Source of the DNA: Candidatus Gastranaerophilales bacterium
GTDB lineage: Bacteria; Cyanobacteriota; Vampirovibrionia; Gastranaerophilales; Gastranaerophilaceae
Assembly: GCA_944323335.1 (NCBI GenBank)
Contig: CALUSB010000014.1
Span: forward strand, 1 to 48,183
DNA: 48,183 bases
Direction of reading: 5' to 3'
Shown: positions 1,880 through 44,569 of the stretch, piece after piece
How positions within the stretch are numbered: position 1 is the first letter of the stretch
Layout: each line of letters starts with the position of its first letter
Notes under the pieces: model-generated
The model's input: the letters and a program-made list of their open reading frames with translations, nothing else
What the model was told of the DNA's origin: nothing
Database searches by the model: none
Position numbers and translations under genes: made by a program

Positions 1880-2149
1880 TTACCTTGCAGCTTGCGCTTG
1901 TTTTTGAACAGGTTTTAAGTTTCTTGATTTACGATATTGAATGTTTAAAGAAATGGCTTTAATGCAAGTTGATTTAAGCTGTTGTTGAAGATTTAGAGCG
2001 TTCATATGAACCATTGCAAAATCATTCATTGCATCAAGCATTTTTGAAGGGTCAACCATTGATGTTTGAATAACAGGGTTATCAACTTTTAGACCTTGAT
2101 ATTTTTTCACTAAAAGTGCATCAATTTTGTCCTTAGCTCCGATAGCCAT
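1880..2149 (-). CDS. Small conserved-looking protein of unknown function
   Basis: 89 residues with a good Shine-Dalgarno (AGGGAG) seven bases before the ATG, which supports it as a real gene. The sequence has no signal peptide or membrane helix. It is mostly predicted helix, with a Met/Asn-rich middle (MLDAMNDFAMVHMNALN) and a basic Gln/Lys/Arg tail (KPVQKQAQAAR). I do not recognise a family. It lies directly upstream of maf on the same strand. On the other side it is divergent from the subtilase-like gene, with 157 bases to that gene's preferred start, and the shared promoters probably lie there. Confidence 0.6.
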   Translation of the reverse strand: MAIGAKDKIDALLVKKYQGLKVDNPVIQTSMVDPSKMLDAMNDFAMVHMNALNLQQQLKSTCIKAISLNIQYRKSRNLKPVQKQAQAAR

Positions 2150-2306: not shown

Positions 2307-3719
2307 ATGAAAGTTAATTCAATAATAAGCACTCCTTATTGCCGCAGACAATACTCTATGTCTTTCCTGGGCAAAAGAAATAATATAGATACACAGGATA
2401 AATCGCAACAAGGACAGCTCGAGCGACTATATACTCTTAGAACAAATGTTTTTGCACTTAACAGTATAAAAAGAAATGCGCAAAACTGCTATCCCGATGC
2501 TACTGATAGCGACATGGAAATACTTACGGATACAAGCTTTGAGGCGCCGTCAAAAAGAGTAACTTGGTTTAATCCAAAAAATTGCAAAGTTTATAACCTC
2601 ATAAAAGTTGGCATAAATAGCGACGGAAGCATTAGAATAAAAATCCTTGATGAGAAAGGAAAGTTTATAAAAACCGCCGATATAGAGCCCAAAACAGTTT
2701 TAATTATAGATAAATTTAAAGAACCCGCATACTACATTAGTGACGGAAACTTTAGAATTCAACAAATACCACACATACCGCATGGACAAATGGTTGCAAG
2801 ATACGCGTTTGTAAATAATCCCTTTGCAAATTATATTTATGCAGATATACAGGAAGAGTATGATAACGAAGGCAACATAAACCATGCATTAAAAAAACTT
2901 GTCACGAAGTATCAAAATGCCGATGAAATAAATTTTTCTTGGGCAGACATTTATCCTAATGAATTTTACGAATACTTTGCTGATAAAAACTTTAGCAGCT
3001 ACAACGAAATTGCTTCAAAAATTGCAAAAAGCTTTGAGGACAACGACGAAGTAAAAAGTGTTTTTGCAGACATTGAAGACACAGCAGAAATAGTAGATTT
3101 AGTAAACACATTGGCAAATCAAGGCACAAAGATTTTTGTATCCGCAGGAAACGGAGGAAAAGAAAGTTTTAACATTGTTTTGCTTGCAAAAAATGTCGAA
3201 GGAGTAGGCTCATTAGACGAGAACGGACAAATATCAGAATTTTGCTCCTCAAGAAAAGATGGGCTAACCAGACATTTTGAACAAGGCGAATACATAATGA
3301 AAGCGGTAAAAGATGGCATAAACTACACCGGCGGAAACCATTGCGATTTCAAATGCAATTTGTCTGAAATATTTCCGCTTACAGGAAAAAAACTAAGCTC
3401 TTGCCGTATTAGCGAAAAAGAATTCAAAGACCTTATAGAGTACAAAAAAAGAGGTGAGAGAAAATTTTATGAACTTTTTGGAGAATTAGCAGATAAAGAA
3501 AAAGTAATGAGCGTCAAACAAGCCTATACACTTTTTAATACAGAATATGAAGATAATTATAAACAAATATACTTAGCAATTGGAGATTGGACACCTTACA
3601 AAGTAAATTCGGCCGAAGAGCTTACACCTTGTCTTACAAAAATCACGGGTACATCTTTTACATCTCCCATAAGAGCAGCAAGATATGCACTTAACATGTC
3701 AATGGATGGGATAATTTAA
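2307..3719 (+). CDS. Divergent subtilisin-like (S8) serine protease
   Basis: 470 residues from the ATG at 2307, or 480 from an in-frame ATG at 2277. Neither start has a Shine-Dalgarno; 2307 is chosen because MKVNSI matches the N-termini of two other proteins here. Numbered from 2277, the S8 catalytic landmarks appear in order and spacing: Asp145 in VLIIDKF, His169 in PHGQMVARYAF, the oxyanion Asn292 in SAGNGG, and Ser460 in GTSFTSP. Between them the sequence is unlike textbook subtilases. There is no signal peptide or membrane helix. A short SFLG motif lies near the N-terminus. The protein probably cleaves peptide bonds, but its substrate and location are unknown. It is convergent with the MFS gene, one base between stops. 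Confidence 0.7.
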   Translation: MKVNSIISTPYCRRQYSMSFLGKRNNIDTQDKSQQGQLERLYTLRTNVFALNSIKRNAQNCYPDATDSDMEILTDTSFEAPSKRVTWFNPKNCKVYNLIKVGINSDGSIRIKILDEKGKFIKTADIEPKTVLIIDKFKEPAYYISDGNFRIQQIPHIPHGQMVARYAFVNNPFANYIYADIQEEYDNEGNINHALKKLVTKYQNADEINFSWADIYPNEFYEYFADKNFSSYNEIASKIAKSFEDNDEVKSVFADIEDTAEIVDLVNTLANQGTKIFVSAGNGGKESFNIVLLAKNVEGVGSLDENGQISEFCSSRKDGLTRHFEQGEYIMKAVKDGINYTGGNHCDFKCNLSEIFPLTGKKLSSCRISEKEFKDLIEYKKRGERKFYELFGELADKEKVMSVKQAYTLFNTEYEDNYKQIYLAIGDWTPYKVNSAEELTPCLTKITGTSFTSPIRAARYALNMSMDGII

Positions 3720-3720
3720 C

Positions 3721-4905
3721 TTAAGAAAATTTACTTTCAAATATATTTTTTAACTCTTTTGAAATACCAAAAGCGCCTGTTAAAAATGCAATTATACTCA
3801 TTATGATTAAAATCTTTTCAACGCCAAAGTGCTGACCGATTAAACCCATTGGAGCTAAAAACAAAGCGCCCAAGCCCCAGCTAAATCCTTGCATAACGCC
3901 TGATATCACGCCTTTGTGTCTGCTCATTATTTTCTGTGCACTCACAAGCGTAACAGAAACCGACAAAAGGATAAAGAACCCAGTTAAAATGAACAATATT
4001 GCAGATAAAACCGGTAAAAACTTCATTACATATAAAAATAGTAAAGTTAGGGGTAAAATTGAGAAGAATGAAAGTCTGATGACGTTTGCTCCGCCGATTT
4101 TTTCTTCGATTTTTGAGCTAATCATTGTAGCAAAACCGCTAATGGTAAAGAAAAGCGTTACAATAAGCCCGATTTGACTTAGCGTAAAGCCGTTTTTCTC
4201 CAAAATAAACGGCATATAAGTGCCAAAGCTTATACTAACACCTGATTTAACCACAGAGATTAATATAAGCCCCAAAATTGCTTTTGAACTAAGGATTTCT
4301 TTCATTATGGGCAGAAATTTCTCATGCGCGGAGCATAATGATTCCTGAGGGATTTTTGGCACAACAAAGTATATAAATAAAGCAGTTAAAACCCCGGGGA
4401 CAGTGAAGAAAAGCAAAGAACTTTCTCCAAAGTTTTGCACCATGCCTGAAGAGCACACAGGGCCAATGGCGTAGCCGATTGTCCCTAAACCCAGAAATAC
4501 TCCCATATATTTTGTTAGTTTAGGATTGTTATAGCTAAATGTATTTACAAGACAAGTGACCTGAGGGTGATAAAAAGCGTTACCGCACATACCAAAAATT
4601 AAAAATAAGGTTAAAAGTTCAGGGGTGTGAGATACAACAGTTAGAGGTATAAAAACAGATGACATCACAAGTCCCCAGAACATAAATGTCCTGTGCCTTA
4701 GTTTATCTGACACATAGCCAAAAACAGGCTGCAGCATTGATGAGAACATATGTCCAAAGGCAATAATTGCACTAATAAATGAAAGCGATATACCAAGTTT
4801 AGCAGTAATTACAGGATACAAAGGCACAAGGACTGAGGCATACCAGTCGACCATAAAATGCCCCGTACACAAACCAAAAAGCGCTTTTTTATCTGCATTT
4901 TTCAT
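3721..4905 (-). CDS. Major facilitator transporter, fosmidomycin-resistance (Fsr)-like
   Basis: 394 residues with about twelve hydrophobic helices, the standard MFS size. The N-terminal segment HFMVDWYASVLVPLYP and the following DKLRHR loop (the MFS motif A position) resemble the Fsr/fosmidomycin resistance branch of sugar- or drug-type MFS exporters. The protein should be an inner-membrane, proton-driven efflux carrier; its natural substrate is unknown. It begins 13 bases after purH on the same strand, so it is probably the last gene of surE-thiS-purH-fsr. Its stop is one base from the stop of the convergent subtilase-like gene. Confidence 0.8.
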   Translation of the reverse strand: MKNADKKALFGLCTGHFMVDWYASVLVPLYPVITAKLGISLSFISAIIAFGHMFSSMLQPVFGYVSDKLRHRTFMFWGLVMSSVFIPLTVVSHTPELLTLFLIFGMCGNAFYHPQVTCLVNTFSYNNPKLTKYMGVFLGLGTIGYAIGPVCSSGMVQNFGESSLLFFTVPGVLTALFIYFVVPKIPQESLCSAHEKFLPIMKEILSSKAILGLILISVVKSGVSISFGTYMPFILEKNGFTLSQIGLIVTLFFTISGFATMISSKIEEKIGGANVIRLSFFSILPLTLLFLYVMKFLPVLSAILFILTGFFILLSVSVTLVSAQKIMSRHKGVISGVMQGFSWGLGALFLAPMGLIGQHFGVEKILIIMSIIAFLTGAFGISKELKNIFESKFS

Positions 4906-4918
4906 AAAATTTGTTCCG

Positions 4919-6424
4919 TTAATGTCTAAAGTGTCTAATACCTGTGGCCGCCATAATCAAGCCCATTTTATCAGCAGTTTCGATAACTTCTTTATCTTTT
5001 ATGGAACCTGCAGGTTGAATAATTGCCGCAATTCTGTTTTGAGCCGCAAGGTGAATATTATCTATAGCAGGGAAAAATCCGTCGCTTGCCAAAATTGCCC
5101 CTTTAGGCGAATCGCAGACACGGTTTATTGCTATTTCTACCGCACCTACTCTTGAAGTCTGTCCGCCGCATATACCAAGAGTCCTTAAATCTTTTGCAAC
5201 AACTATACCGTTAGATTTAACATGTTTTGCTATTTTAAAAGCAAATACCATATCTTCAATTTGCTCTTGAGTAGGTTTTAGTTTGCTTACTATCTTAAAC
5301 TTATCAGGGTCAAGCTCAAGTGTGTCTTTTTCCTGCACCAAAACACCAAAGGGGGTAAGCTTAACCTCCTGAGGTACAAAGTTTTGATATTGTTTTAAGT
5401 CAGTATTGATTTTTATTACTCTTAAATTTTTCTTTGTTTTTAAAATCTCAAGAGCATTATCCGTGTAATATGGTGCAATTACTATCTCTAAAAACATTGA
5501 AGTCAGGCATTTTGCAACTTCTTCATCAACTTCTTTAGTGAACGCTACAATACCTCCAAAAGCACTTAGCGGGTCACAGTCAAGCGCCTTTTGCCATGCA
5601 TCCAGCGTACTTTTGCCAAGTGCCACACCGCATGGGTTTGTATGCTTTACTATTACACAGGCAGATACATCATAAAACTCGCTTGCAATATTCACAGCAG
5701 CTGTCGCATCAAGGATATTATTATATGACATCTCTTTACCGTTTAGTATCTCATAATCAATCTGCGTATCATAAGAGTATAAAGCGGCCTTTTGGTGAGG
5801 GTTTTCACCATATCTTAAATCACTGACTTTATTTAAGTATATCGCCTTAAGCTCGGGTAATGACTCTTTATTACTAGCACCAAAGTTATAAGATAATTCT
5901 TCAAGGATTGTATAGTCGTATTTTGAAGTAAGCTCATATACTTTTAGCGCAAGGGCTTCCCTTGATTTCTCATCAATGTTATCAAAATCAAGCTCGTAGT
6001 CATTTGCATCGCAAATAACGGTCACATTTTTATAGTTTTTAGCAGCAGCTCTAAGAAGTGCCACACCGCCTATGTCTATATTTTTTAACAAAGTGTCGAT
6101 ATCTGCATTAACACCTTTATATTTTTCAAAAGGATAAAGATTTACTACAACAAGAGAAAAAGGAGGACATTTTAGCTCTTTTTGCTCATTTTCATTAGCT
6201 AAAATAGGAGCAAAAATATCGGGGTGAAGTGATTTTACTTTACCCCCCAACAATTCGCTAAATCCTGTAATTGTAGAACTTTCAATGGCTTTGATGCCAT
6301 TATCATTTAGAAGTTTACAGGTATTACCTGTTGATACTATCTCCCAGCCGGATTGTGTCAATCTTTTTGCAAGCTCTACAATATTTGTCTTGTCATAAAC
6401 ACTAATATAAGCGCGTTTTTTCAT
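4919..6424 (-). CDS. purH: Bifunctional AICAR formyltransferase / IMP cyclohydrolase
   Basis: 501 residues, normal for PurH. The N-terminal IMP cyclohydrolase domain begins RAYISVYDKTNIVELAKRL and contains GGRVKSLHP-like GGKVKSLHPDIFA. The C-terminal AICAR transformylase domain has the conserved KHTNPCG (Lys-His pair) and ends in ATGIRHFRH. It carries out the last two steps of purine synthesis, AICAR to FAICAR to IMP, in the cytoplasm. A GGGGA Shine-Dalgarno lies before the ATG. It is 60 bases downstream of thiS, with no obvious terminator between, so it is probably read with surE-thiS. No purine riboswitch is visible upstream. Confidence 0.97.
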   Translation of the reverse strand: MKKRAYISVYDKTNIVELAKRLTQSGWEIVSTGNTCKLLNDNGIKAIESSTITGFSELLGGKVKSLHPDIFAPILANENEQKELKCPPFSLVVVNLYPFEKYKGVNADIDTLLKNIDIGGVALLRAAAKNYKNVTVICDANDYELDFDNIDEKSREALALKVYELTSKYDYTILEELSYNFGASNKESLPELKAIYLNKVSDLRYGENPHQKAALYSYDTQIDYEILNGKEMSYNNILDATAAVNIASEFYDVSACVIVKHTNPCGVALGKSTLDAWQKALDCDPLSAFGGIVAFTKEVDEEVAKCLTSMFLEIVIAPYYTDNALEILKTKKNLRVIKINTDLKQYQNFVPQEVKLTPFGVLVQEKDTLELDPDKFKIVSKLKPTQEQIEDMVFAFKIAKHVKSNGIVVAKDLRTLGICGGQTSRVGAVEIAINRVCDSPKGAILASDGFFPAIDNIHLAAQNRIAAIIQPAGSIKDKEVIETADKMGLIMAATGIRHFRH

Positions 6425-8549: not shown

Positions 8550-11378
8550 CTAAACTTTATCTTTTCCACAACATTTTTTATACTTCAAACCGCTTCCGCA
8601 AGGACAAGGGTCATTTCTGCCGACTTTTGGCATATCATCCTTTGGCTCTTCATCCACATAGTTAGAAGTTGAATTTTTAAGAGCACGAGTAAGCTCGGTT
8701 TCTGTTTCTGCATCAGTGCCCATAAAGGGAACGTCTTCAAGCGGATTTTCGTTTTCATCTATAATTTGTATTCCAAAACGCGCTCTAAACAAGTGTCTTA
8801 CAGTTTCTGACTGAATATCTGACATCATGGAGTTAAAGAGGTTAAACGCCTCTTTTTTATACTCAATAAGCGGGTCTTTTTGCCCGTAAGCAACAAGACC
8901 GATAGAGTCTTTTAGGGCGTCAATGTTGTTCAAATGGTCAATCCACTTAGAGTCAATTACTTGCAAAAGTACATCTCTCTCAAGAGTTCTCATGACATTA
9001 TCATCAGAAAAAGGTTCTTGTTTTTTAACGTCAGCGTTGCCGTATCGAGACATAACATCGTTAAAACCTGCAACCGATGTCTCTTCCATCTCTTTATACG
9101 CGCTGTTTACAAGCACTTTTAGGTAATCAGACATCTCCTGATATCTTTTTTCCATAAGGTCATTGACCGTAACATCAACAAGTTGCGGAAATACCGAGTG
9201 AATTTCATTTGTGAGCATTTTTATGTCGTCTTTAACATACTCGGCAGGAGGCATATCAGGAGAAATATACTGCCTTAGAATTTTATCAACTTCAAGGTTT
9301 ATCATATAGTTAATATCAGAGCTTAAATTCTTTGAAGCAAGAACTTTTCGCCTTTGAATGTAGAATTTTTCCCTTTGAATATTAATGACATCGTCATATT
9401 CAAGAACGCTTTTTCTTATGTCAAAGTGATAAGTTTCGACTTTTTTCTGCGCAGATTCGATTTGACGTGTTATAAGAGGATTTTCTATAGCCATATCTTC
9501 TTCAATATTTAACATACTCATAAGGGCAGAAATTTTATCCCCGCCAAAAATTCTCATCAAATCATCTTCCAAAGATAAGAAAAACCTTGTAGACCCGGGG
9601 TCGCCCTGACGCGCTGCACGACCGCGAAGCTGGTTATCTATACGTCTTGACTCATGGCGCTCAGTACCTATAACGTGCAAACCGCCAAGCGCTACAACTT
9701 TTGCGTGTTCTTCTTCGGTAATTTTCCTTGCGCGCTCAAGAGCGGCCTCTTTTTGCGCTTCATAATCAGGAGCATCGGGGGTTATTCCTTTTGAATCCAA
9801 ATCCTCTTTTGCAAGGTATTCAGGGTTACCGCCAAGTAAAATATCAGTACCGCGACCTGCCATATTTGTTGCAATAGTAACGGCGTTAACACGTCCTGCC
9901 TGAGCGATAATATAAGCTTCTCTTTCATGTGCCTTAGCGTTTAAGACATTATGCTTAATACCTCGTTTTTTAAGCAGTGCAGAGAGATACTCGGATTTTT
10001 CAATACTAATAGTACCTACAAGAGTCGGTCTGCCCATTTTTGCCATTTTTTCAATTTCATCGGCAACTTTTAGATATTTCATCTCGCGGGTTTTATAAAT
10101 TACATCAGGGTAATTAATCCTGATATCAGGCTTATTTGTAGGAATTTCCGTACAAGGAAGATTGTAAATCTTTCCAAACTCTGCTTCTTCGGTCATTGCC
10201 GTACCTGTCATGCCTGATAGTTTCGGGTACAGTCTAAATAAGTTTTGAAAAGTAATGCTGGCAAGTGTTTGAGTCTCATCTTGAATTGCAACACCCTCTT
10301 TAGCTTCAATTGCCTGATGCAGACCCTCAGACCAGCGTCTGCCCTCCATTATACGACCTGTGAACTCGTCCACTATCATAACTTCGTTGTCTTTAACTAC
10401 ATAGTCGGTATCTTTTATGAATAATTCTTTTGCCTTTAGCGCCTGAAGCAGATGATGAGCATATTGAGTGTGAATATCAAATAAATCATCTACCCCTAAA
10501 AGCTCGCATGCCTTATCGATACCATCTTCGGTTAAGATAATATTTTTATTTTTTTCATCAACTTCATAGTGCTCTACTTTATTTAAAAGAGGAGCAATTC
10601 TAGCCATAGTCTTGTATGTTTCAGCCGATTTTTCAAGTCTGCCTGAGATGATAAGAGGGGTTCTTGCTTCATCAATTAAAATACTGTCCACTTCATCGAT
10701 AATTGCATAGTTATAAGGTCTTTGAACAAGAGCCTCGAGGGATGAGGACATGTTATCGCGAAGATAATCAAAACCAAATTCATTATTTGTACCGTAAGTA
10801 ATATCGCAAGCATAGGCTTGTTTTTTTGATTCAAAGTCATTGTGCCCTGAGCCTTGAGATAAAATAACCCCGACACTTAGCCCCAAGAACTTATAAATTT
10901 TGCCCATCCAGTCAGAGTCACGTTTTGCAAGATAATCATTAACCGTAATTACATGCACACCCTTGCCCGTTAGAGCGTTAAGGTAAGCAGGAAGAGTTGC
11001 AACAAGGGTTTTACCCTCCCCTGTTCTCATCTGGGCAATGTGACCATTGTGAAGAAATATTCCGCCTATCAACTGCACGTCAAAGTGGCGCATGTTAAGC
11101 ACCCTTTTGCCCGCTTCCCTAACGGTTGCAAAAGCCTCGGGCAAAATGGCATCCAGTGCAGCTTTTTCAAGTTCTCTATCTTTTTTAAAATCAGTTGATG
11201 TTTCTCTTTTGGATAAAATTTCTCTGAATTCGTCAGTTTTAGCTCTCAACTGTTCGTCTGTGAGCTTAGAGAATTCCTCTTCAAGAGCGTTTATATGCTC
11301 AACAATTGGCATAATTTTATTTATTTTTCTCTCGTTTGGGTCTTTAAATATTTTTAAAAGTATATCGACTAGGCTCAT
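8550..11378 (-). CDS. secA: Protein translocase ATPase SecA
   Basis: 942 residues from the ATG at 11378, which has a strong AGGAG seven bases upstream. The longer open frame to 11723 adds residues unlike SecA and is rejected. Motifs in order: MRTGEGKT (Walker A, 117-124), IIDEVDSILIDEARTPLIISG (DEAD-like Walker B), GRGTDI and the QxxGRxxRQGD helicase motif, and a C-terminal SEC-C zinc motif CPCGSGLKYKKCC. SecA drives preproteins through SecYEG. The gene stands alone, divergent from the NhaD-like gene. Confidence 0.98.
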   Translation of the reverse strand: MSLVDILLKIFKDPNERKINKIMPIVEHINALEEEFSKLTDEQLRAKTDEFREILSKRETSTDFKKDRELEKAALDAILPEAFATVREAGKRVLNMRHFDVQLIGGIFLHNGHIAQMRTGEGKTLVATLPAYLNALTGKGVHVITVNDYLAKRDSDWMGKIYKFLGLSVGVILSQGSGHNDFESKKQAYACDITYGTNNEFGFDYLRDNMSSSLEALVQRPYNYAIIDEVDSILIDEARTPLIISGRLEKSAETYKTMARIAPLLNKVEHYEVDEKNKNIILTEDGIDKACELLGVDDLFDIHTQYAHHLLQALKAKELFIKDTDYVVKDNEVMIVDEFTGRIMEGRRWSEGLHQAIEAKEGVAIQDETQTLASITFQNLFRLYPKLSGMTGTAMTEEAEFGKIYNLPCTEIPTNKPDIRINYPDVIYKTREMKYLKVADEIEKMAKMGRPTLVGTISIEKSEYLSALLKKRGIKHNVLNAKAHEREAYIIAQAGRVNAVTIATNMAGRGTDILLGGNPEYLAKEDLDSKGITPDAPDYEAQKEAALERARKITEEEHAKVVALGGLHVIGTERHESRRIDNQLRGRAARQGDPGSTRFFLSLEDDLMRIFGGDKISALMSMLNIEEDMAIENPLITRQIESAQKKVETYHFDIRKSVLEYDDVINIQREKFYIQRRKVLASKNLSSDINYMINLEVDKILRQYISPDMPPAEYVKDDIKMLTNEIHSVFPQLVDVTVNDLMEKRYQEMSDYLKVLVNSAYKEMEETSVAGFNDVMSRYGNADVKKQEPFSDDNVMRTLERDVLLQVIDSKWIDHLNNIDALKDSIGLVAYGQKDPLIEYKKEAFNLFNSMMSDIQSETVRHLFRARFGIQIIDENENPLEDVPFMGTDAETETELTRALKNSTSNYVDEEPKDDMPKVGRNDPCPCGSGLKYKKCCGKDKV

Positions 11379-11447
11379 AAACTCTCCTGAATTTTCTCCC
11401 TTTAAACTAATACTATCACAAAAACATAAAAAAAATTTATTACTGTT

Positions 11448-11475
11448 TTGACTAATATTTTTTAGCAGATAGAAT
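11448..11475 (+). promoter_or_regulatory. Promoter of the NhaD-like transporter and ruvB
   Basis: TTGACT (11448-11453) and TAGAAT (11470-11475) are 16 bases apart, each one base off consensus. AGGAG at 11501-11505 lies six bases before a TTG at 11512 and fixes this unusual start codon. Confidence 0.55.
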
Positions 11476-11511
11476 AAGACGTAGTTATATTTTTTTTGAG
11501 AGGAGAAAATT

Positions 11512-12831
11512 TTGGAACACTTACACACGCTGGCGAGCCAAAATGCTGTGATTGTATCTGCTTCGATTCTTATTGTTGCATACATTTTTATAGCCTGGGA
11601 AAAAATTTCCAAAGTTACAATTGCACTTTTGGGCGCATGCTTAACATTATTCTTAGGTCTTTTGCAAACCGAAAAAACAGCAGAAGGTCTTGCTGAATAC
11701 TTTACAAATTTTATTGATTTCAATGTAATATTCCTGCTTGTCTCAATGATGATAATCGTTCACATTGCAGCAAAATCAGGTATGTTCACTTGGATGGCAA
11801 ATGAAATCTTAAAACATACAAAAGGCAAGCCGAAACTTGTACTTTTTTCACTTGCTTTCTTCACTGCTTTTGCAAGCGCATTTTTAGATAACGTAACAAC
11901 GGTAATCCTTGTTATGCCTATTACTTTTGCAGCCTGCAAGAAACTGGACTTAAATCCTGTTCCTTTTTTAATCAGTGAAATTATATGTTCTAACATCGGC
12001 GGAACGGCAACACTTATCGGTGACCCGCCGAACATCATCATAGGTTCGGCTGCAGGCTTTAGCTTTATGGACTTTATAAAAGAACTTACCGACATAGTAT
12101 TTTATATTTTCCTTGTTTGCGTGGGCTTACTTATCTTTATGTTCAGAAAACAACTTAAAAGCACGCCTGAAAAAATGGCCTCAGTTGCTGAAATTGACAA
12201 CTCAAACACAATAACTGATAAACTTCTTGCTATAAGAAGCGGTATAGTACTGTTGCTTGTAATACTTGGTTTTATGGCACATGACATAACTCACATTCCG
12301 ACATTCCTGATTGCAATGATTGGTGCGAGCGTACTTTTAATATTTGAAAAACCTGCAAAAATCTTGGTTGAAGTTGAATGGAATACAATATTCTTCTTCA
12401 TTGGTTTATTCATTATTATAGGCGGTCTTGAAGCGTCAGGCGGTATCAGGCTTATGGCAAACTGGCTGCTTGAAGTGACAAACGGTTCTCAAAGTGCAAC
12501 CGCTATGATTATCCTTTGGGCTTCGGGTATCTTATCCGGTATTATTGATAACATCCCATATACAGCAACTATGGCACCTATGCTTGCTACAATTTCTCAG
12601 ACTATGGGAACAGAGTATACTCACCCTCTATGGTGGTGCTTGTCACTTGGCGCATGTTTGGGTGGAAACCTAACAATAATCGGTGCTGCAGCAAATGTTA
12701 TCGTTAGCGAAAACTCTGCAAAGCACGGACGCCCGATATCATTTATGTACTACTTAAAATACGGTGCAATTACAACATTTGTAGCTCTATTTATGAGTAC
12801 AGTTTATATTTACTTAAGATTCTTAAGATAA
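11512..12831 (+). CDS. ArsB/NhaD-family ion transporter
   Basis: 439 residues with about eleven to twelve hydrophobic helices. The segment [22 protein letters not shown] is the conserved signature of the ArsB/NhaD/P-protein (ion transporter superfamily) group, and the second half contains the matching [15 protein letters not shown] re-entrant repeat. Members are Na+/H+ antiporters, arsenite exporters or anion carriers; nothing here decides the substrate, but no arsenic genes are nearby, so an NhaD-like Na+/H+ role is the better guess. The start is TTG, supported by AGGAG. ruvB begins one base after its stop, so the two are co-translated. Confidence 0.88.
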
Positions 12832-12832
12832 G

Positions 12833-13930
12833 ATGATAATCTCAGACGACGATAAAAACAGAAAAAATAACAAGTCACAAGGCGCATCCTCTGATGCGCC
12901 TATGTGCAAATCTCAAGATTTAGACGCTAAAGAGTCAGATTTTGACAAGACATATGAAAAAAATATTCGTCCAAAAACATTTAATGAGTACATCGGTCAA
13001 AGCGCACTGAAAGAAACTCTTAAAATAACTATTGAAGCAAGCAAAAAAAGAAACATACCGCTTGACCACCTGCTTTTCTACGGGCCACCCGGACTTGGAA
13101 AAACCACTCTTGCGGGAGTTATTGCAAATGAAATAGGAGTAAACATTAAAATAACTTCAGCACCTGCGCTTGAGCGCCCAAGGGATATTATAGGTATTTT
13201 AATGTCACTAAAAGGCGGCGAGATTTTATTTATTGATGAAATTCACAGACTGAATAAAATCGCGGAAGAAATTTTATACCCTGCAATGGAGGATTTTTTC
13301 ATTGACCTTACAACAGGTAAAAGTCAAAGCGTTAAAACAATGCGCGTGCCTGTGCCAAAGTTCACCCTTATTGGAGCAACAACAAAAGCAGGCGCATTAT
13401 CAGGGCCATTAAGAGACAGGTTCGGAATTATACACAGGTTGGAATTCTACACTGTTGAAGAACTCGCGCAAGTTATAAAAAGAAGTGCAAAAATTCTCAA
13501 CATAGAAATTGATGACGATGGAGCAATTGAAATTGCCTCGCGCTCAAGAGCAACCCCGAGAATTGCAAACAGATTAATCAAGAGAAGCGCTGATTATGCT
13601 CTTGTTAAATATGACGGAAAAATTACAAAACAAATTGCCAAAGAAGCACTCGATTCGCTATGTATCGATAATTTAGGGCTCGATAACACAGACAGAGCCT
13701 TGCTTGAGCTGATTATAAACAGCTATGACGGCGGCCCGGTGGGAGTTGAGACACTATCTGTCGCACTTGGCGAAGATGTCAGAACGATTGAAGATGTGTA
13801 TGAACCTTATTTACTGCAAAAAGGCTTGCTTGCACGTACAAACAGAGGACGTTGCGCCACAAAAGCAGCATACAGTCACCTTGGGATAAAATACATCGGT
13901 CAAAACGGCCAAATGGGGCTTTTTGACTAA
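12833..13930 (+). CDS. ruvB: Holliday junction branch migration helicase RuvB
   Basis: 365 residues: a polar N-terminal extension of about 40 residues, then the RuvB core [11 protein letters not shown], Walker A GPPGLGKT (84-91), Walker B DEIHRL and sensor ATTKAG, and a winged-helix end with [16 protein letters not shown]. RuvB hexamers drive branch migration with RuvA and RuvC. The extension (Asp/Lys/Ser-rich) is longer than in E. coli, as is common in cyanobacterial-type RuvB. Its ATG follows the transporter stop by one base. It meets the HDOD gene tail to tail with one base between stops. ruvA and ruvC are not in the window. Confidence 0.96.
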
Positions 13931-42886: not shown

Positions 42887-44569
42887 TTACTTTTCACCAA
42901 GAAATTCCATAAGTTCATTTTGTGCCTTTTGGCATTTTCCTTGTCTTACAATCTTATAAGCCTGATTAATCTTACTTTCTAAATAAGCAGGAAATTCTTT
43001 CTGGTTGTGTAAAGCAGCGACCTGAATTATAAAATCAATTTTTTGTGTTACTTCCTCATAAGAAACTAATCTGGGCACTTCTGCTCCTTGAGATAACTTA
43101 TTATAGACAGTGCTGTCCGGATAAAATAAATCCTCAATATTTAGTGCTACAGCATCAAGAAAATCATTATTGTCAGAAACTTTAGACGAAAATCTGCCGT
43201 CTCTGATTTCATTTCTAACAGACATTAGAGCACCTGCAATTGCACTTGTTATAACATCTGCGGTATTTTCATTTTTTTCTTTATAGATATCGGCAAGAGT
43301 GGTAAACTTCTCTAATGCATCACCATCACATTCAAGGTTTTTAATTTTTTCAAAGTCAATATTTTTAACAGGGATATTAAGAGATATCGCCCAATTTTTA
43401 ACATCATCGATAAAATCTGACGGAAGAAAATTAAAGGGTCTTTTTATGGAGTCAACAAAGTTGTCTATATTTGCCTTTGCGCTTTTTACATGAGCCCAGC
43501 CTTTTGTTAGTGCTTTTGAAAACTGCACGCCCGCCCATTTATTTTTCTTCCAGAAATTTTTTAGAGCTTCTTGCTGTGATTTTGACATTTTATCAAAATC
43601 AGCGATAAATACATTCTCATCCAGTTCAACTCTTTGTTTTTTAAAGAATTTAACCATATGTTTTCTAAGACTTTTTCCTTCCTGAGTCTTATTCCAGGCA
43701 TATGTTACCGCTTGCCTGAAAAGCATTACCTGCTCAGGGTTGTCCTCGAAATATTTTTTCTGCCTTTCAGACATCATGGCAAGTTTTTCCGGATGCTCGG
43801 CATAGTGCTTTATTAAGCCTTCTGAAATATGTTTTCTGTGAGATTCGCTTAAAGGCCCGCGCGGGATATAAACAGGTTCGCCGTCTCTTTCTTGAACACG
43901 TCTGTCCATTGATTCCATGCGCTTTTGAGCCATTTGATTTGTCAAGCGCTCGTTATACTCTTTATCCGAGAACTTCAGCACATGTGCATAATCCCTGTCC
44001 ATAAGCGGGATATTTAACTTATTTAACGTATGATAAAGATTAACACCTGAGTATTCCTTTAGGTCATTTAGTGAAAAACCTTCCGCCCAATATAACTTTA
44101 AAAGCTGAAAAGCTAAATCCTCGTCCTTGTTAAAGTTTTCTATCTCACCGTTTTTTACCTTACCAATAAAAGAATCCGGCATGTAGTCAATTTGCGCGTC
44201 TGAGAGAACACCCTCAAACTCGTCAAACAAAGCCTTTGCATCATCTAAGTCATAGCAGTCATTCAGAAGTGAATATCTGTTTTTGTGAATGTCTATAAGA
44301 GTTTTGCCCTCAGGATTTCCGTTTTTTATTGTTTCTAGTGCTTCAGAGTGCACCTCTGGCGGAAATTTTTCTCCTTTGATATCAGAGAGTGCATCAAGAT
44401 TTGCTACACTTTCTTTTAAGTTCAAGCTTGAACCGCCCGTAAAACTCAGATAATGAGCATAATTAGGCAGTTTATAGTCTTTTTTTATATTATTATCATT
44501 CGATTTTTGTTGTGCTTGGCTTTTAGAAAAATTATAAAAAGAGTTTGTTAATATCGGATTAATGCGCAT
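42887..44569 (-). CDS. Large unknown protein with N-terminal SFTG motif and NUMOD3-like repeats
   Basis: 560 residues with AGGGAAG before the ATG. No signal peptide or membrane helix. MRINPI opens the protein and LSFTGG is at 41-46. In the middle, RGPLSESHRKHISEGLIKHYAEHPE (237-261; split here: key residues Ser241, His244, Arg245, Ile248, Ser249) resembles the NUMOD3 module of homing-endonuclease-type DNA-binding proteins, and similar helix units follow at 262-292 and 333-358 (pattern Q..YF..N...F..A.T..W). No HNH or GIY-YIG catalytic motif is seen. The C-terminal 200 residues are helical and unassigned. Function unknown; nucleic-acid binding is possible. It lies 56 bases after bioA on the same strand. 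Confidence 0.75.
   Translation of the reverse strand: MRINPILTNSFYNFSKSQAQQKSNDNNIKKDYKLPNYAHYLSFTGGSSLNLKESVANLDALSDIKGEKFPPEVHSEALETIKNGNPEGKTLIDIHKNRYSLLNDCYDLDDAKALFDEFEGVLSDAQIDYMPDSFIGKVKNGEIENFNKDEDLAFQLLKLYWAEGFSLNDLKEYSGVNLYHTLNKLNIPLMDRDYAHVLKFSDKEYNERLTNQMAQKRMESMDRRVQERDGEPVYIPRGPLSESHRKHISEGLIKHYAEHPEKLAMMSERQKKYFEDNPEQVMLFRQAVTYAWNKTQEGKSLRKHMVKFFKKQRVELDENVFIADFDKMSKSQQEALKNFWKKNKWAGVQFSKALTKGWAHVKSAKANIDNFVDSIKRPFNFLPSDFIDDVKNWAISLNIPVKNIDFEKIKNLECDGDALEKFTTLADIYKEKNENTADVITSAIAGALMSVRNEIRDGRFSSKVSDNNDFLDAVALNIEDLFYPDSTVYNKLSQGAEVPRLVSYEEVTQKIDFIIQVAALHNQKEFPAYLESKINQAYKIVRQGKCQKAQNELMEFLGEK

Follow-up and report, generated by a model that had tools for sequence, protein, structure and literature searches.

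To our knowledge, few subtilases remain intracellular, and little is understood about them. The described systems closest to the protein studied here are the intracellular subtilisins (ISPs; 7xr8, 6f9m), the secreted subtilisins (BPN', Carlsberg; PF00082) and the cyanobactin proteases PatA/PagA and the PatG domain. ISPs bear a short inhibitory N-terminal extension, and a LIPY/F motif is described for their pro-peptide (both from an excerpt of PMC6220982).

We studied a 48,183-nucleotide stretch of DNA, referred to here as the window, from a Candidatus Gastranaerophilales genome (G000; 1.67 Mb in 49 contigs). The Gastranaerophilales are a little-cultured, gut-type non-photosynthetic lineage beside the Cyanobacteria. 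The window encodes a 470-residue S8-like protein that shares with ISPs the subtilisin catalytic residues, the lack of an export signal and a short N-terminal extension. Unlike ISPs, it has about 100 extra residues before the catalytic Asp, carries a variable insert before the Ser and ends 20 residues after it; inspection of its translated leader revealed no LIPY/F motif. With secreted subtilisins it has in common the core fold (about 177 residues aligned at a Z of about 16), but the hydrophobicity scan indicates no signal peptide, Pfam finds no inhibitor I9 and the score lies under the PF00082 cut-off. The subtilisin fold also links it to PatA/PagA and PatG (Foldseek matches 4h6w, 3zxy and 4akt), from which it differs in that no precursor-peptide operon is seen here and identity in structural alignment is about 12-15%.

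Further signal-less subtilases are found in the same order at loci L013-L028. They have similar IDxF...HG...AGN...GTSF-type motifs and, in most cases, a short C-terminus, whereas the N-terminal domain of the window family was not seen in those loci as read. Two of these proteins (L022 765-1634 and L023 985-1848) belong to another family; in them Ser replaces the oxyanion Asn (AGGSKG) and the catalytic Ser motif is kept. In L028, two signal-less subtilase genes stand in tandem (937-1875 and 1897-2631).

Results and Discussion

Fold and catalytic residues

The window protein matched Peptidase_S8 (PF00082) with an E-value of 7.9e-4 and 19.3 bits, below the gathering cut-off of 21.8, and the same model matched 21 of 34 homologues at E<=0.1 (best E 1.4e-6). 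No match was returned by an NCBIfam search with the window protein, and no subtilase by a PDB search with the single sequence at E<=1. When the PDB was searched with the family profile, intracellular subtilisins came top (7xr8, E 2.6e-4). An AlphaFold2 model, for which the input was a 34-row homologue alignment, reached a pLDDT of 87.7 and a pTM of 0.86, with residues 1-30 as the sole segment under 50. Subtilisins ranked first in a Foldseek search with this model (best E 1.9e-5), and the top VIA match was the engineered subtilisin BPN' 3bgo (Z 16.3, rmsd 3.1, 177 aligned).

In the model, D135 is placed at the end of a strand, H159 at the start of a helix, N282 after a strand and S450 before a helix, which is the layout of subtilisins. 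The His, Asn and Ser are kept in all 34 aligned sequences and the Asp in 33; the lone exception, L055, has Glu in that column, which an alignment shift may explain. Given the PF00082 matches, the AlphaFold2 model, the VIA match and the conservation of the tetrad, the resemblance is not due to chance, and the protein almost certainly adopts a subtilisin fold. We would classify it as a subtilisin-fold (S8-like) protease, and neither as an ISP nor as a PF00082 member by the cut-off of that model. It is the sole S8-like match in its genome (PF00082, 13.6 bits, under the cut-off).

An earlier note, made from the sequence alone, had described a diverged subtilase with a recognisable tetrad and proposed structure prediction and a homologue search as checks. 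This observation proved real: the model contains the subtilisin core, the homologues retain Ser, His and Asp save for the one Asp-to-Glu change, and the hydrophobicity scan given below agrees. The numbering in that note needs adjustment, as its residues 145, 169, 292 and 460 count from an in-frame ATG at 2277 and its coordinates from the ATG at 2307, from which they become 135, 159, 282 and 450. The upstream ATG would give a 480-residue product; we picked the start at 2307 from the homologues, which begin at the second Met, as M[KIFY][VI][NS]. Coordinates are collected in Table 1.

Table 1. Coordinates of the subtilase gene, its parts and flanking genes in the window, and of export-related loci in this and related genomes (G, genome; L, locus).
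Feature	Position	Strand	Evidence
Subtilase gene	2307..3719	+	ORF, AlphaFold2 model, structural matches, homologue-based start
Disordered N-terminal leader, residues 1-30, pLDDT 25-40	2307..2396	+	AlphaFold2
S-F-L-G motif, residues 19-22	2361..2372	+	Translation, leaders of genus members
N-terminal domain, residues 31-129	2397..2693	+	AlphaFold2, family conservation
Asp/His/Asn-bearing core, residues 130-300, fast-diverging between some close relatives	2694..3206	+	Pairwise comparisons
Catalytic Asp135, end of strand 130-135	2709..2711	+	AlphaFold2 and alignment
Catalytic His159, start of helix 159-170	2781..2783	+	AlphaFold2 and alignment
Oxyanion Asn282, after strand 275-279	3150..3152	+	AlphaFold2 and alignment
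Length-variable Asn-Ser insert, residues 346-440	3342..3626	+	Family alignment
Nucleophile Ser450, just before helix 452-465	3654..3656	+	AlphaFold2, structural match, alignment
Conserved 89-aa ORF flanking the insertion site	1880..2149	-	ORF list, genus comparison
Conserved transporter flanking the insertion site	3721..4905	-	ORF list, 15/15 genus genomes
Loci of the second export set	G000:C1 104001-116236 (L133); G000:C24 (L144); G000:C18 (L156); L135 (G020); L136 (G027)		
ORFs matching the FlhA C-terminal half	G000:C1 115124-116143; G020:C6 10760-11788; G024:C8 13904-14914; others		

Domain organisation

A hydrophobicity scan of the first 60 residues detected no run resembling a signal peptide or membrane helix; the 12-residue KD maximum was 0.60, as against 2.38-3.18 in four window proteins used as controls. 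The statement of the earlier note that both features are missing therefore holds. Its further statement that there is no propeptide stands only in part: Pfam finds no inhibitor I9 in the window protein or its homologues, but about 100 extra residues precede the Asp.

These residues form an N-terminal domain, predicted by AlphaFold2 to consist of helices and a four-strand beta meander. With a mean pairwise identity of 0.50, it is the best-conserved long part of the protein, above most of the catalytic core. The corresponding values are 0.56 for the 30-residue Ser segment, 0.45 for residues 275-345, 0.41 for residues 130-174, 0.20 for residues 175-274, 0.21 for the insert and 0.26 for the leader. 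Folded alone, the domain reaches a pLDDT of 85.2. Comparison with the PDB gave nothing convincing (lowest Foldseek E 0.11, highest VIA Z 3.8); such weak matches prove neither a new fold nor the absence of a prodomain role. We consider the domain a candidate for a new module with a regulatory or docking role.

The Asn and Ser are separated by 168 residues in the window protein, compared with 66 in subtilisin BPN'. The insert of 100-plus residues that had been singled out as unusual is thus real, but the spacing ranges from 81 to 238 across the family, and the insert is hence variable rather than defining. In 34/34 sequences the chain ends 20 or 21 residues beyond the Ser (20 in the window protein), and the top VIA alignments to subtilisin BPN' end near residue 240 of 275; the last segment of ordinary subtilisins is therefore missing here.

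Occurrence and gene neighbourhood

Searches with the single sequence (E<=0.001) gave matches in 18 of 58 relatives, and profile searches (E<=1e-5) in 45 of 240 class genomes, the weaker rows of which may be other subtilases, as in L013-L028. The family is clade-restricted and patchy. Within the genus, the protease occurs in 8 of 15 genomes and the neighbouring transporter, which we take to be of the major-facilitator type, in all 15. In six genus genomes without the protease (G004, G006, G008, G010, G011 and G013) the site could be read, and the transporter leads straight to the 89-aa ORF and/or Maf, the 89-aa ORF being unlisted in G004. A further genome without it, G012, has the site cut by a contig end. 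Because the gene comes and goes singly between conserved neighbours, we conclude that it has no obligate partner in the genus.

In other genera the protease lies in different gene contexts. As many as seven matches were counted in a single genome, some being fragments of the same gene, and some relatives are interrupted (one internal TGA in G105). We rejected the idea of mobile-element cargo: searches of 50,697 phage records and 72,556 plasmid records were both negative, and no transposase was noticed adjoining. No description of this subtilase family was seen in the Gastranaerophilales and Melainabacteria literature surveyed on proteases, subtilisin and type III secretion.

Peptide maturation, one of the roles suggested by the earlier note, finds no footing in the genus, where the gene is a lone insertion with no adjoining small gene of its own. 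In other genera, small genes do precede the protease at a distance of a few bp. They form two unrelated clusters of about 170 aa, c2 at eight loci (L034 5342-5848 and seven others) and c39 at three (L044, L049 and L052); one member of each was searched against Pfam and had no match. A c2 profile built from seven of the eight members detected c2 in 6 of 58 genomes, none in the genus, and among these only G024 had the protease in the single-sequence search, the other five being without. A peptide-maturation operon or an obligate pairing with c2 was accordingly rejected, as c2 is mostly found in genomes without a protease match and is absent from the genus. A further cluster, c6 (174-196 aa), occurs near the protease in seven loci (L034 8961-9485, L036, L040, L041, L042, L060 and L062); several c6 proteins have a two-part N-terminus, SNPFA ... 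VSFTGN, and the L034 copy has no Pfam match.

Sequence divergence

We compared eight pairs of sequences, picked by eye, using a simple Nei-Gojobori count in which some values were saturated. Between the window gene and its nearest relative, L029, the whole-gene dN is 0.176 and dS 1.70 (dN/dS about 0.1), and by this count the gene is overall under apparent purifying selection. The dS of six neighbour genes in the same comparison is 0.08-0.68. Nucleotide identity is 0.94-1.00 upstream (1350-2250), 0.57-0.89 in the gene and 0.88-0.95 downstream, in the transporter (3750-4950).

In some pairs the divergence is concentrated in the core. Between L041 and L060, dS is 0.38 in the N-terminal domain, 1.78-2.19 in residues 130-300 and 0.36 at the Ser end, with amino acid identity of 0.36-0.60 in residues 130-300; between L031 and L032 it is 0.14 in the N-terminal domain, 0.65 to saturated in the core and 0.75 at the Ser end. 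This three-part pattern is clear in these two pairs, whereas the window and L029 display a gradient instead; it is partial in L056/L058 and L054/L056, and absent in L046/L051, L044/L052 and L036/L042. Amino-acid selection alone does not account for the excess, because synonymous sites also exceed those of the neighbours. The simplest reading, judged from these sequence comparisons, is suggested to be recombinational replacement of the substrate-binding region by a diverged allele. Alternatively, relaxed constraint could cause the fast divergence. A segment-specific donor allele was sought and rejected, as the nearest relative was the same in all four segments for L041, L060, L031, L032, the window gene and L029.

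Proposed function

We tentatively favour, at something short of an even chance, an active intracellular serine endoprotease of subtilisin fold, with a fixed N-terminal domain and a core of diversifying specificity. Folding of its chain would take place in the cytosol, with no removable I9-type prodomain. The conserved N-terminal domain would dock the enzyme to a constant partner, or answer to one, and the diversifying core would select the proteins to be cleaved, with alleles that differ in target being exchanged by recombination. Both catalytic activity and a cytoplasmic site are predicted. Since the diversification affects the substrate-binding stretch but spares the chassis, limited and specific cleavage seems to us more likely than bulk degradation. 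One point against an intracellular site is that the leader resembles those of other proteins, described below, some of which carry Sec-type or lipobox-like stretches; this resemblance might indicate sorting to a place outside the cytosol.

Alternatively, the protein may be the counterpart of the Bacillus intracellular subtilisin, acting in stationary-phase cytoplasmic protein turnover with the leader as an inhibitory pro-peptide. The intracellular subtilisins at the top of the PDB profile search, the short inhibitory extension of ISPs and the lack of a detected export signal are consistent with this reading. We nevertheless consider it unlikely: the leader lacks LIPY/F, the short family members are leaderless, only 8 of 15 genus genomes have the gene, and neither the extra N-terminal domain nor the diversifying core fits such a role.

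N-terminal leader and possible flagellar-type export

Another possibility is that the protease leaves the cell through a flagellar-type apparatus, either that of the flagellum or a second, filament-independent set, with an F-x-G motif in the leader as signal and targets outside. The leader is predicted to be disordered, and F-(x)-G is present in that of all seven full-length genus members. Across the wider family, F.?G occurs in 19 of 34 leaders, and the short members, including those beside fliPQR, are nearly leaderless, which speaks against such a signal. Unrelated proteins of these genomes bear look-alike leaders, as in the window at 42887-44569 (-), which encodes a 560-aa protein with a leader ending LSFTGG and no Pfam match. 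The same leader type was seen on proteins in L077, L081, L083, L086, L071, L072 and L176.

Motif enrichment was assessed in crude gene sets, the longest ORFs from part of each genome. SF.G at residues 9-60 was found in 10 of 396 genes in G000 (p 0.027), 5/179 in G020 (p 0.013), 4/87 in G027 (p 0.034), 4/190 in G045 (p 0.053) and 3/155 in G057 (p 0.54), the sole FliP-negative genome sampled, a single case that weakens the comparison. The class [SN]F[KRTSGAN]G at N-termini, chosen after examples had been seen, was enriched in G000 (12/396, p 0.00039) and G020 (7/179, p 0.00046), but not significantly in G027 (2/87, p 0.28) or G045 (4/190, p 0.17), nor in G057 (1/155, p 0.76). In an unbiased 4-mer scan of G000, SFxG was outside the top 20. 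As the enrichment depends on how the motif is defined and the unbiased scan was negative, we do not accept the F-x-G leader as a proven genome-wide signal; on present sequence comparisons it is a lead, not proven, towards a sorting signal. In the products of two adjoining genes of L176 in G045 (9848-12346 and 12472-13659), the F-x-G leader precedes a Sec-like or lipobox-like stretch, which argues against the leader as a pure type III signal.

The protease adjoins fliPQR in five loci and rod-type genes in G027, gene names that we presume from the sequences. This favours export, although those five loci carry FliP of the flagellar type, long and with a signal peptide. FliP-like genes occur in 57 of 58 relatives, often as a long and a short form. 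Beside the flagellar set we identified a second export set of short FliP, FliQ, FliR, FlhA, FlhB and FliF. In 14 of the 58 genomes FliP is present and a flagellin match absent, and these keep the second set only, a point in favour of a filament-independent route. The lone full-length FlhA of five flagellin-less genomes shares 79-83% identity with the second FlhA of G000 and G007 and 38-40% with their flagellar FlhA; FlhB behaves likewise (68-69% vs 34-36%), and FliF is also of two kinds. Extra ORFs, mostly of about 480-500 aa, match FlhA over its C-terminal half alone (PF00771 positions ~308-656).

Partial flagellar sets are treated as loss or reduction in excerpts of Di Rienzi et al. (PMC3787301) and Soo et al. 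(PMC4040986), and no second export set was seen described in the Melainabacteria and Gastranaerophilales type III secretion literature surveyed. Judging from the pattern of paralogues, we suggest instead a conserved flagellar-type apparatus for export that is distinct from the flagellum and not a decayed form of it; it appears only loosely tied to the protease. Taken together, we regard export of the protease by this kind of route as rather unlikely.

Distinctly unlikely, in our judgement, is a conflict gene diversified by an arms race, such as an anti-phage protease, a cell-death trigger or an inter-strain factor. The patchy distribution, the multiple matches in some genomes and the fast divergence of the core between conserved flanks would suit this reading, and the earlier note had raised immunity and cell death. 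That suggestion was not borne out: the window protein had no match in PADLOC (E<=0.01) or PHROG, the phage and plasmid records yielded none, and no linked defence gene was recognised, nor a partner gene in the genus. PADLOC run on four proteins gave one weak match (HEC-07, E 4.3e-4) to residues 345-448 of the L034 homologue. A decaying pseudoenzyme, to which the divergent motifs, the PF00082 score under cut-off and the interrupted relatives might point, is very improbable given the intact frame, the conserved tetrad and the low dN/dS.

Significance

The family joins near-invariant catalytic residues and a fast-changing substrate-binding stretch with a better conserved accessory domain. A wider reading, which we think rather improbable, is that these are clade-wide intracellular or non-classically exported subtilases with a conserved N-terminal domain and a recombining core. 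Their F-x-G leader, which other proteins also bear, would then be a sorting signal not described before, perhaps serving the second export apparatus of non-flagellated Gastranaerophilales. If that were true, the host lineage would repeatedly redirect a single protease as the targets changed. Should the diversification be adaptive, the family would make it tractable to study which targets gut Gastranaerophilales direct their proteolysis against.
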